Source: Micractinium sp. NFX-FRZ (lineage: Eukaryota; Chlorophyta; Trebouxiophyceae; Chlorellales; Chlorellaceae). From it: a DNA stretch of 64,000 bases. The DNA lies in assembly GCA_029339195.1 (NCBI GenBank), contig JAPTJF010000145.1, positions 1-64,000 on the forward strand, read 5' to 3'. The notes beneath the pieces are model-generated. The model ran no database searches, was not told the DNA's origin, and saw only the letters and a list, made by a program, of their open reading frames with translations. Below are positions 1,766-64,000 of this stretch, one piece after another. Each line of letters opens with the position of its first letter. Positions within the stretch are counted from its first letter, which is position 1. The position numbers and the translations under genes were made by a program.

Positions 1766-4700
1766 TCAGGTGTAGTAAGCAAGCGGCTCCTTGCGCCGGC
1801 TGCCTCCCTCGCCGTACTGATCATTCCACCTGCAGGCGGCGCGCACAACAGGCGAGTGGCGGTGAGGCTATGCAAGAGCCAAGACTCAAAAGGGAGCTAA
1901 GCGCATGCACCAGGACCAGCCGGTGTCAGGTGGCCAGGACACACACAGACAGAGACAGAGACAGAGACAGCAGCATGCACGGCAGGTGGCCAGGACACAC
2001 ACAGAGACAACAGCATGCACGGCAGGCGCGCCAGCAGCCAGCGCCACGTCACCCCCCCCACCCAGCGCATCACCAACCCCTCCCTCGACAGCCGCCTGCC
2101 CAGGCGCAGCCACCGGCGCACCTCTGCAGCTCTCCGCTGCTGGCAGAGTCGCTGTGCGTGGAAGCGGTGACCTGCTTCAGCGCCTCCTTGAAGTCGGCCA
2201 TGTTGATGGAGCGCAGCCTGACTGGCTCCAACGGCACGTGGGTGGACACAGCAGCCAGCGCAGCAGGCATAGCGCTGCTGGCGGCGGCGGCGGCCGCCGC
2301 CGCCGCGCCGGCCGCGCCGCCGTCGCCGCCGCCCGCGCCGCTGTCCCTCGCGCTGCCGGCAGGCCCGCCGCCGCCGTTCCTCCCCGCCGCCTTCTGTGCT
2401 GCCTTGGCGGCACGCTCCTTCTCCAAGTACTCCCGGATGGGGCAGTAGGCTGCCGCAATGCACAGGTTTTTGAGGTCGCTGCCGCTGTAGCCGTCGGACA
2501 GCTGGGCGGCCTCCTTGAAGTCAAAGGCGGGCTCCAGATCCTCGCCCTGCAGGATGACCTGCAGCCAGTTTGGACCGCATAGTATGGGCAGTGAGGAGCT
2601 GTGGGGAGTTATCCACGCTTGCAGGTGAGGGCCGGAGCTGGGCTTCGCCTGCCAGCGTGAGCTGCGCTGCTTGGAGGGGCTGCACGCTACGCTCACACAC
2701 CTTCCCATCTGCCGCCACAAGTGCAGGGTACACTCGCGGTGGACCCCAGCCGAACGCACCCCTCCATCCATGCAAGCGCCCTGGCTGCCCCTGCCCCACA
2801 GGGATCAAGGGAGGTCTGCCTGGCCGTGCACCAACGACAGACGCTGCACCCTAAATCACACCCGCAGGATGCGCTCGCGGTTGGCGGCGTCCGGCAGCGG
2901 CACAAAGATGCGGCGCGGCATGCGGCGGATGACGGCGTCGTCCAAATCCATCGGCCGGTTGGTGGCTGCCAGCACCAGCACACGGTCGGACTGCTTGGTG
3001 CGCAGGCCATCCCAGTGCTGCAGAGACAAAGGGGGGGAGGGAGAGCAGGGTTAAAATGGCAGGGGAGGTTGGTATCCACAATCTGCTTGCTTTATGTGCA
3101 GGCTGCCCTTGTGTTGCAGCAGAGTAGCAGGGGAAAGAAGGGGTACTTTGGCAGGAGAGGGCGGTGGAGTGCTGGGGACCGTGCAGGTGCCGCACAAGCG
3201 TTGCTGCAAATATGCATGAGCGCAACATGTGTATTGCTGTCCTGCAGAGCCGGCGGCAACCCAACCACCCGTCACCAGCCCACCGTCATGAACTCGTTCT
3301 TCATCTTCCTCAGCGCCTCGTGCTCGTTGGAGGACTGGCCGCGCTTGGAGAGGAAGGAGTCGATTTCGTCCACAAAGATGACGCTGGGGGACAGCTTGTG
3401 GGCCAGCCCAAACAGCGCCCTGCAGGGAGAAGGAGGGGCAGCGAGGGCGGGCAATCAGGCAGATGGCAAGCAAGCGGGTGGGCAGCAAGGGCGGGCAGCA
3501 GGTGCTGGTTGGGGGCAAGGGGAAGGGCTAGTGTACCCATCACACCCCATGACGGATGGGCTTCTCCCTGCCATCCCCATCCCCAGCCTCGCTATTCCCC
3601 CAGCCACACCCGACCAGCAGCTCGCCCTCGCCAAAGCATGGGATGGCGCCCTTGCTTGCAACCCCCACACATTCCAAGGGCGCGCTCCACTCGATCCAAC
3701 CAAACCACACAACAAAGCCGCACCTGACCAGCCGCTCGCCCTCTCCAAACCACTTGGAAGTGATGGCGCTCATGTTGACGTTGATGAAGTGGGCCCCGCT
3801 CTCAGAGGCAACAGCCTTGGCCAGCATCGTCTTGCCGGTGCCAGGCGGGCCAAAGAGCAGCAGGCCTGCGGAGGCCGCGGGGGAAGGGCGGGACAAGGGT
3901 GGCAAGATCATTGTACAGGGTGGTGAAAGAGAAGACCGTGCAGACAGAGCGGAGACGGGAAGAGCAAACGCCGGGCAAGGTTGCATGATTGTGGTGCCAG
4001 CCTGGCACAAACCTGCCTGCCTGCAGACCTGGCCAGCTTGCCTGCCCCACTTACCCTTGGTGGGCTTCGTGAGCGCACCGCGTGTGAAAAGCTCGGGGCG
4101 CTGCGGGCAGGAGCAAAGGAGGAACAGCATGCAAACATCTTTTGCCCGAGTGGGGTGGAGGGGGCAAAGTGTTCTTGCTCTGCTTTCCCTGCTGCCATTC
4201 GTTAGCCGGTGCTCTGCGTGCTATGCTGTGTTGCGGCTGCTACCACACGCTCTGCCCAGCTGCATGTGCAGCACGCATGCGTCCATGCTTGCGCCTGCTG
4301 CTCATGCCCTGCTGCTGCTGGCGCTGCTGCCGGTGCTGCACTGCTGCCGCCCCTCACCTGCAGCGGCAGGATGACCACCTGCAGACATGGCAGGCAGGAA
4401 GCAGAGCCAGGCAGCAGATATGTTGGTTGGTGGCTTGTGTTTTGAGGCACCGCCAGCAGCCGCAGCACAGCAGCGCCATGTCTCCTCCTGCCATGCGAGG
4501 CCGTGCCAGCCCCTGAACCGCCCTCCACAGGTTGTTTGAGTCATGCCCTGCCACCCCCTCACCTCGTGCAGCGTGTTCTTCACCGCCTCCAGCGCACCAA
4601 TGTCGTCAAACGACACGTTGATCTCCTCGGGGGGGATGACCTGCGGGAGGAGCGGCACAGCACAGCATGTTGCACAGCACAGAGCAGCATGCGAGCACAG

Positions 4701-63414: not shown

Positions 63415-64000
63415 CTACTTCAGGCGGGGCCCCTCTGCATTAGCAGGCAACTGCAGGTAGACCAGGGTGGCAATGATGGCAACGCCCAGCTCCGTGCCGG
63501 CAGCGTCGTGCAGGATGCTGCAGTGGGGGCAGGCAGCGGAAGGGCGGGGCGGCAAAGCATGTTTGCACAATTTGTTTGTGTGTGCGGGAAGCGCCGTGCA
63601 GGATGCTGCACAGAGTTGGGGTGGGCAGCAGAGGGGTGGGGGCACGATGGGAGTTTATCTGTGAAGTGTGCATGCGGAGCGTCGTGCAGTATGCTGCAGT
63701 TGGGGCAGGCAGCGGAAGGGCGTGGCATCATAGAAAGCGTGTGTGCACAGTGTGCATGTGTGCGGGAAGCGTCGTACAGGATGCTGCACACGGGGGGTGG
63801 GTCAGGCAAGCAGCAGAGGGGCGGGGGCGCGTAGGGAGGGTGTCTGTGAAGTGTGCATGCGTGCGGGCAGCGCTGTGCAGGGTGCTGCACATAGGGGGGC
63901 GGATTGCAAGGGCGAGGCGGCAGAGAGGTTGAGCGGCAGGCAGGGGAGCAGCGAGTGGGCAGCGGCAGGAACCACACCAGGGCGTGCACAGGCGGGTCAG
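63415..64000 (-). CDS. 3' end of an unrecognised gene entering from the right (partial)
   Basis: The last coding exon is 63517-63415 on the minus strand: after an acceptor (CACTGCAG) it encodes ILHDAAGTELGVAIIATLVY followed by LQLPANAEGPRLK and a stop. A hydrophobic stretch near the C-terminus could be a membrane segment. Upstream, the acceptor plus first bases of the exon (GCAG/CATCCTGCACGACGC) recur four times with 88-101-base spacing, so which copy is spliced is unclear. No earlier exon is recognised within the window and no family is assigned. Confidence 0.5.
63504..63890. repeat. five tandem copies of an acceptor-exon edge, 88-101 base period
   Basis: Plus-strand blocks resembling cgtcgtgcaggatgctgcag begin at 63504, 63592, 63680, 63770 and 63871. 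Alternating copies are more alike (…gctgcag then …gctgcac), suggesting a two-unit higher-order repeat. Confidence 0.85.

Follow-up and report, generated by a model that had tools for sequence, protein, structure and literature searches.

Changes in intron length are usually attributed to transposons and small insertions or deletions, and tandem duplication of exons can yield alternative exons. The tandem genomic duplication model of intron gain is said to go back to Rogers 1989 and Hellsten 2011, and the authors of the Chlorella variabilis NC64A genome reportedly remarked on exon-like repeats in introns. In the present study we describe introns of the green alga Micractinium sp. NFX-FRZ that carry imperfect copies, or echoes, of the adjoining exon edge together with its splice site, starting from positions 1 to 64,000 of contig JAPTJF010000145.1 (hereafter the window). 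As far as the accessible text of the sources goes, tandem duplication is an established source of new introns (PMC3443670; Drosophila cases in PMC2891723), and small tandem duplications are known to form when breaks with protruding ends are rejoined by end joining (PMC8355091, PMC5730883). The literature searched, which did not include the most relevant Chlorella genome paper, yielded no account of border duplication on a genome-wide scale. The accessible portions of the Coccomyxa, Asterochloris, three-Chlorella and Auxenochlorella papers held no statement on exon-like intron repeats, and the word 'intron' is absent from the two-Chlorella telomere-to-telomere paper.

The contig is 128 kb long and belongs to an assembly of 66 Mb and 838 contigs; the window takes up its first 64,000 bases. 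The window was analysed together with 25 other 10-kb stretches of the same genome, 314 kb in total, and this sample underlies all counts below unless the window is named. Genes were predicted with a purpose-written simple hidden Markov model trained on the sample, which returned 86 genes and 585 introns, 561 of them with both flanking exons. The predictions show a clean splice consensus (CAG/GTGAG donors, TGCAG/G acceptors), and intron lengths (median 236 bp, mean 259) lie close to the 209-250 bp averages of six Chlorella-clade genomes, as given in the accessible part of PMC6606587. Exon borders were compared with their own introns in two ways: a junction-inclusive test used border sequence including the junction (score at least 20), and an exon-only test used the 40 exon bases at the border (score at least 16). 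Length-matched unrelated introns, dinucleotide shuffles, reverse complements and other introns of the same gene served as controls.

Exon edges recur in their own introns far above chance. In the exon-only test 5.3% of 510 donor borders and 8.4% of 514 acceptor borders scored, against 0.36% and 0.35% in unrelated introns, 0.21% and 0.31% in shuffles, and 0.4% and 0.2% in reverse complements. The junction-inclusive test found copies at 38 of 540 donors (7.0%) and 46 of 540 acceptors (8.5%); the corresponding rates were 0.33% and 0.43% when unrelated introns were used, and 0.24% and 0.33% with the remaining introns of the gene concerned. With exons restricted to at least 170 bp and the score to at least 17, 3 of 118 donors and 12 of 118 acceptors remained (0.15 and 0.21 expected). 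In the window alone, with 96 borders of each type, 9 donors (0.22 expected from unrelated introns) and 15 acceptors (0.38 expected) reached a score of 20 or more. A first-pass annotation of the window, made from its letters alone, had spoken of a genome-wide pattern and suggested shuffled introns as the comparison. The excess recurs in the independent stretches outside the window, which gave 29 of 444 donors (1.31 expected) and 31 of 444 acceptors (2.0 expected). Echo introns occur in 19 of the 26 stretches and in 36 of the 82 genes with scored introns.

The same annotation had described introns as filled with copies and border duplication as the main way in which introns grow here. The copies are real, but 'filled' overstates their extent and the main-route claim goes beyond the evidence, a detectable echo being present in 76 of 561 introns. 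These are concentrated at the long end: 22 of 388 introns of 60-299 bp pass (2.2 expected) and 54 of 161 of at least 300 bp (1.7 expected), so that roughly one in three of the latter bears a recognisable trace of border duplication. Older events are invisible, and the detected share need not equal the true one. An assembly artefact is unlikely, since most copies are too diverged, and to differing degrees, to be assembly duplicates of one sequence. Differing divergence also agrees with the proposal that copies are of different age. Searched against the assembly, by a search that skips very common words, the echo regions of two window genes, isopropylmalate dehydrogenase (IPMDH) and kelch, each occur in one place, and no allelic copies with recent change were found for them. 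As these two tested regions match only themselves, a mobile or introner-like origin was set aside.

Copies lie typically 85-125 bases from their source, head to tail. Self-comparison of the window returned 27 direct repeats at a spacing of at most 800 bp and one inverted repeat. Exact 10-mer matches between exon and intron, a test that uses exon and intron labels and no other splice-site information, peak at lags of 80-119 (264 matches versus ~13 expected from lags of 420-1500); inverted matches show no peak there. Clustering yielded 151 repeat events, of which 70 are exon-intron, 68 of these at a lag below 400; among the 66 with lags of 60-400, 37 fall at 85-125 and 8 at 206-227. Some of the 46 exon-exon events, namely those with similar lags, are probably echo copies called as exons. 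Alignments scoring at least 18 cross the junction in 96 of 110 cases (donor 46/50, acceptor 50/60), and the identity profile around donors is raised from about -50 to +30.

Intron length discriminates between ways of acquiring such copies. The 69 single-echo introns have a median length of 343, which falls to 223 once the lag is taken off and then does not differ significantly from the 213.5 of introns without an echo (p=0.58). Insertion of the copy alone predicts a corrected median that does not fit (293 versus 224, p=5e-5), and replacement of existing intron sequence fares worse (343 versus 233, p=4e-11). The intronic spacer between source and copy is duplicated too (68 events, mean score 10.9 versus 7.8 in unrelated introns, p=1e-8). 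Length minus lag equal to echo-free length, together with a duplicated spacer, points to tandem duplication across an existing splice junction that lengthens the intron. Continuous tandem arrays are seen among the better preserved cases, namely IPMDH, kelch, L014 and L017.

The echoes of the window are given here, each copy with its strand and source:

3602-3658, minus strand: putative AAA ATPase gene, copy of 3716-3777 at the donor edge of exon 3724-3865; lag ~120, 49/63 identical.
11324-11896, minus strand: FKBP53, between exons 11172-11323 and 11857-11994, echoes of the exon end near CACCCTTGATCA; 24/24 and 38/48 matches.
13543-13590, minus strand: FKBP53, copy of 13442-13490 at the acceptor edge of exon 13371-13465; lag ~100, 41/49 identical.
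14073-14107, minus strand: FKBP53, copy of donor edge 14214-14248; 28/35.
16863-16932 and ~16964-16998, plus strand: IPMDH, two echoes of exon end and donor 16759-16819, in an intron taken as 16795-17285.
Near 17547, 17640, 17758, 17868 and 17985, plus strand: IPMDH, copies of exon end and donor 17433-17496, in intron 17497-18190.
19295-19333, plus strand: IPMDH, copy of donor 19198-19238.
19531-19577, plus strand: IPMDH, copy of acceptor 19632-19676.
19945-20017, plus strand: IPMDH, copy of acceptor 20055-20131.
23839-23899, plus strand: unnamed gene 22858-25284, copy of acceptor edge 23926-23979; 46/62.
38523-38570, minus strand: THOC7, copy of acceptor 38298-38344; 38/49.
38981-39034, minus strand: THOC7 (THOC7 domain found), copy of donor 39081-39133; 44/55.
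56344-56382, minus strand: kelch gene, copy of acceptor edge 56237-56276; lag ~106, 33/40.
57211-57263, minus strand: kelch gene, copy of donor edge 57424-57478, in a tandem array (Tandem Repeats Finder, TRF, period 108, 2.3 copies, 81%).
60439-60503, plus strand: QNG1 (queuosine salvage; Q_salvage domain), copy of acceptor edge 60599-60663; lag 160, 56/65.
60910-60960, plus strand: QNG1, copy of donor edge 60701-60754; lag ~209, 43/55.
61037-61110, plus strand: QNG1, copy of acceptor edge 61326-61397; lag ~289, 52/75.
63493-63926, minus strand: right-end gene, array of the last ~25 bases of predicted exon 63415-63517 with adjoining intron; lags 176, 266 and 367.

All seven genes named in the first-pass annotation (AAA ATPase, FKBP53, IPMDH, THOC7, kelch, QNG1 and the right-end gene) thus carry the pattern. 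The right-end gene is the weakest case: its array holds only ~25 predicted-exon bases, the gene is cut by the window end and the exon has no homology confirmation. Copies listed are ~69-89% alike over aligned columns, the exception being the short FKBP53 copy at 24/24. Self-comparison recovered the AAA ATPase pair as 3602-3654 versus 3716-3774 (78%), two FKBP53 pairs (11630-11716 versus 11809-11896, and 14018-14107 versus 14163-14248 at the donor edge). IPMDH 19198-20131 contains an array at lag 97 across 391 bp (59%). The kelch copy at 57211-57263 retains a GGTGAGA donor. Pfam families were matched by 6 of the 8 predicted window proteins submitted: FKBP with a nucleoplasmin-like domain (FKBP53), SUMO-like, ferredoxin, THOC7, kelch and queuosine salvage (QNG1). 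The AAA ATPase label comes from motifs recognised by eye. The QNG1 intron with donor and acceptor echoes also holds a perfect (AC)30 microsatellite at 61251-61310.

IPMDH allows the copies to be set against known proteins. About five copies of exon end plus donor, with a unit of ~105-112, were counted by eye in intron 17497-18190, and three were wholly or partly called as exons (17574-17594, 17760-17819, 17872-17931). These segments are absent from PDB 3r8w, from three named algal homologues and from P0004, which is 95% identical to IPMDH; the predicted protein repeats a 20-residue stretch of which 3r8w, the three homologues and P0004 each hold one copy. Homologous proteins likewise lack the extra segment from the 16795-17285 region. 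Corrected by hand, the protein has 394 residues and matches a 394-residue Micractinium homologue over its full length, and identity is 84-89% to proteins of two Micractinium and of Chlorella vulgaris, which by itself places the alga in the Chlorellaceae. Use of the outer splice site in IPMDH is supported by four homologous proteins without the copies; in the other genes the outer site is presumably used as well. Within 17418-18020 about three ~108-bp echo units have been duplicated together as one block, at a lag of ~323, and one pair of exon-edge copies is 95% alike, which together imply at least two rounds of duplication.

The copies keep features of splice sites. The GT dinucleotide survives in 25 of 34 donor copies, and the AG in 25 of 45 acceptor copies. 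We also scored the strongest site lying no more than 12 bp from the expected position, with the range of 90% of real sites as cut-off. By this measure 20 of 34 donor copies and 22 of 45 acceptor copies resembled real sites, compared with 12% of random 25-bp intron windows for each type. The copies may therefore act as decoy splice sites, which is one half of the earlier suggestion that they form a store of decoy or alternative exons. The other half, alternative coding exons, finds no support: mismatches are spread evenly over codon positions 1, 2 and 3 (197/1190, 233/1193 and 240/1192, or 0.166, 0.195 and 0.201), and 73 of 84 alignments, counting their intron part, contain a gap that is not divisible by three. 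Judged from these patterns, the copies resemble neutral debris, not a reserve of exons. The exon side should stay recognisable for longer, as only one copy of the pair decays freely.

Border events differ in size from other local repeats. With low-complexity sequence removed, a lag below 80 is found in 4 of 65 border events and in 14 of 25 other non-coding events (p=8e-7); without that filter the counts are 5 of 68 and 18 of 30. At lags of at least 80 an exponential size distribution is not rejected (p=0.30), in agreement with a floor followed by a declining spectrum. Copies also reach only a limited way into the exon; neither regularity had been mentioned in the first-pass annotation. Across 412 edges of exons of at least 130 bp, taken on both sides at a score of at least 17, matches to segments at 0-40, 15-55, 30-70, 45-85, 60-100, 75-115 and 90-130 bp numbered 34, 19, 4, 4, 2, 1 and 3, with 0.5-1.2 expected per segment; free alignments reach less than 60 bp into the exon in 51 of 63 cases. 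A uniform 105-bp unit should, by our estimate, reach further.

We consider, with a probability of roughly 75%, that introns in this genome have been lengthened by recurrent local tandem duplications straddling the exon-intron border, mostly of 85-125 bp, with the outer splice site kept and the inner copy decaying neutrally. In its core, recurrent local duplication across borders, this agrees with the first-pass annotation, given the excess in own introns and the lengthening by the lag. A short tandem duplication whose unit straddles an existing border would occur repeatedly, probably through ordinary break repair, in which staggered ends are filled in and joined. Splicing would continue at the original, outer site, leaving the protein unchanged, and the second half-exon copy, its splice site and the adjoining intron bases would join the intron and decay neutrally. 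Selection on splicing may then remove border duplications shorter than ~80 bp or containing more than ~60 exon bases: a decoy too near the real site, or a half-exon long enough to be recognised, would be harmful and lost. We infer that such a filter acting on repair-type tandem duplication best explains both the size floor and the exon cap.

Several points weigh against this reading. Homology spans about half of the lag in many events (median copy 57 bp versus a lag of 112), which also fits templated insertion of the copy alone, though the length test argues otherwise; the averaged donor profile is flat beyond +30, so spacer duplication is not visible there, and no event looked young enough to place the breakpoints of the unit. 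The splicing filter is itself an interpretation, and the exon cap has exceptions: of the 63 free alignments, 12 extend at least 60 bp, and on the acceptor side, at a score of at least 15, there were 7, 7 and 9 matches between 45 and 115 bp (2.4-3.0 expected), a 2-4-fold excess. At a score of at least 22, acceptor windows have copies in 28 of 235 cases versus 6 of 175 intron-interior windows (p=0.002), an excess above the 1.5-2-fold advantage that we estimate for slower decay, which strains a model of uniform duplication. The comparison covers this one genome. The gene models are ab initio predictions from the DNA alone, and in echo-rich introns the gene finder miscalled some echo copies as exons, in IPMDH and, by our reading, in FKBP53 and THOC7 as well. 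Called exons that resemble echo copies lie at 11553-11676, 17760-17819, 17872-17931 and 39264-39294. We take the first of these, in FKBP53, to be false, as the predicted protein spreads its FKBP_C match over 127 residues for 90 profile positions.

The acceptor excess would also suit a border-specific process, in which splice junctions, through transcription, R-loops or exon-edge chromatin, trigger ~105-bp duplications that extend at most ~60 bp into the exon. We regard this as unlikely, and equally doubtful is its corollary that splice junctions are hot spots of size-specific, intron-side duplication, with splicing or transcription driving intron lengthening at the DNA level. The concentration of lags would suit it (37 of the 66 events), as would the lags of 30-60 in 14 of 25 other non-coding repeats and the fact that 8 of the 10 intron-intron events with a lag of at least 80 sit in echo arrays, four of them in the array at the right end and the other four in scored echo introns. 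Copies are 3.5 times as frequent in acceptor windows as in intron-only ones, and at score 22 or more junction windows have copies in 40 of 483 cases versus 1 of 194 intergenic windows. However, the frequency in donor windows (12 of 248) does not significantly exceed that in intron interiors (6 of 175, p=0.63), and 40-base segments throughout introns of at least 260 bp have local copies as well (3-15 of 231, ~1.3-6.5%, at a score of at least 17, with 0.5-3.6 expected). Intergenic windows, drawn from just 61 kb so labelled, have copies in 1 of 194 cases and intron-only windows in 6 of 175 (p=0.06). At a score of at least 20 three of the 194 intergenic windows have copies, with lags of 86, 98 and 115, so such units also arise away from borders. 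Above the floor the sizes do not reject an exponential distribution, and the same floor and cap would be expected under a selection filter. A relation of the ~105-bp unit to a 10.5-bp or nucleosome repeat was considered and set aside; by eye the lags looked smooth.

Templated insertion, in which repair of an intronic break copies the nearby exon edge alone (~50-80 bp) and pastes it ~100 bp away with no spacer duplicated, appears distinctly improbable. The short copies relative to the lag and the flat donor profile noted above would be its natural outcome, and high-identity pairs may fall well short of the lag, as in L011 (58 bp at 86%, lag 170). It is opposed by the growth of introns by the lag and not by the copy length, by the homology that the spacer keeps, and by the fully tandem arrays of IPMDH, kelch, L014 and L017.

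Intron gain of the Rogers type, in which tandem duplication of AGGT-containing exon sequence created these introns, an established idea that the first-pass annotation had mentioned, is given almost no credence here: although the same class of mutation is described in the accessible text of a review as a genuine and potentially prevalent route (PMC3443670), its signature is essentially at chance among 497 introns, where the upstream exon end matches the intron 3' end at a score of at least 14 in 1 (0.15% in unrelated introns) and of at least 12 in 2 (0.6%, 3 expected), and the downstream exon start matches the intron 5' start at 14 or more in 2 (0.12%) and, as a weak hint in its favour, at 12 or more in 11 (0.8%, ~4 expected). 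A second weak hint is the 115-bp intron at L024 3225-3339, in which the upstream exon end is copied just before the 3' end (score 23, at a lag of 118). With a predicted downstream exon of only 3 bp, this intron falls outside the 497 tested; it is the sole intron-gain candidate met and could be either a gain or a misprediction.

Repeats of other kinds occur in the window. Three 99-bp direct repeats (82%) at 36379-36675 lie within predicted exon 36267-36697 and are probably an in-frame protein repeat. About 8.5 kb at 43000-51494 hold no credible predicted gene and contain degenerate local repeats (46004-46210 versus 46480-46686; 46521-46709 versus 48120-48319); nine open reading frames, eight from this region and one from 34551-35726, gave no Pfam match, and 46000-48400 has one partial 73% match on another contig (C385). 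At the left end, non-coding 52-209 carries short repeats of a 35-bp unit, with 52-94 and 167-209 alike at 91%. This is the sole intergenic event with a lag of 80-400 among the clustered events listed.

Echoes of this kind have practical uses and costs. A copied half-exon marks the origin of each duplication and, as its exon part remains legible, provides a rough clock for it. Should the size floor and exon cap hold, they would amount to a natural experiment on which decoy splice sites are tolerated. Gene finders applied to such genomes will call echo copies as exons, as in IPMDH, and existing annotations probably hold similar false exons.

Among known systems, tandem exon duplication likewise leaves duplicate exon sequence inside an intron; the copies here mostly comprise a piece of an exon and a single splice site, and they evolve without coding constraint. 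End-joining duplications (PMC8355091, PMC5730883) are, in the accessible text, similarly short and head to tail and are a plausible source of the units, whereas PMC8355091 concerns short (<100 bp) insertions with no tie to splice borders, the word 'intron' appearing nowhere in the text available. Introners (see PMC9860276) are also a recurrent source of intron sequence within a genome; they form dispersed families, while the two echo regions tested here match their own place only. In the potato RdRp gene, according to the accessible portion of PMC4974935, a duplicated segment also crosses the intron-exon boundary together with splice signals. That was a single event, from which an extra intron resulted; the 314-kb sample studied here holds dozens, and the copies, judging from homologues in the case of IPMDH, are silent inside the intron. 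Intron gain by tandem duplication, so far as PMC3443670 and PMC2891723 are accessible, shares with the present case a local duplication within a gene, duplicated splice signals and an unchanged protein. In that model an exon is interrupted by a new intron as long as the duplicated segment, and the copies here, unlike those it predicts, rarely abut the opposite splice site; in the present genome an existing intron is lengthened by a unit that spans a real border.

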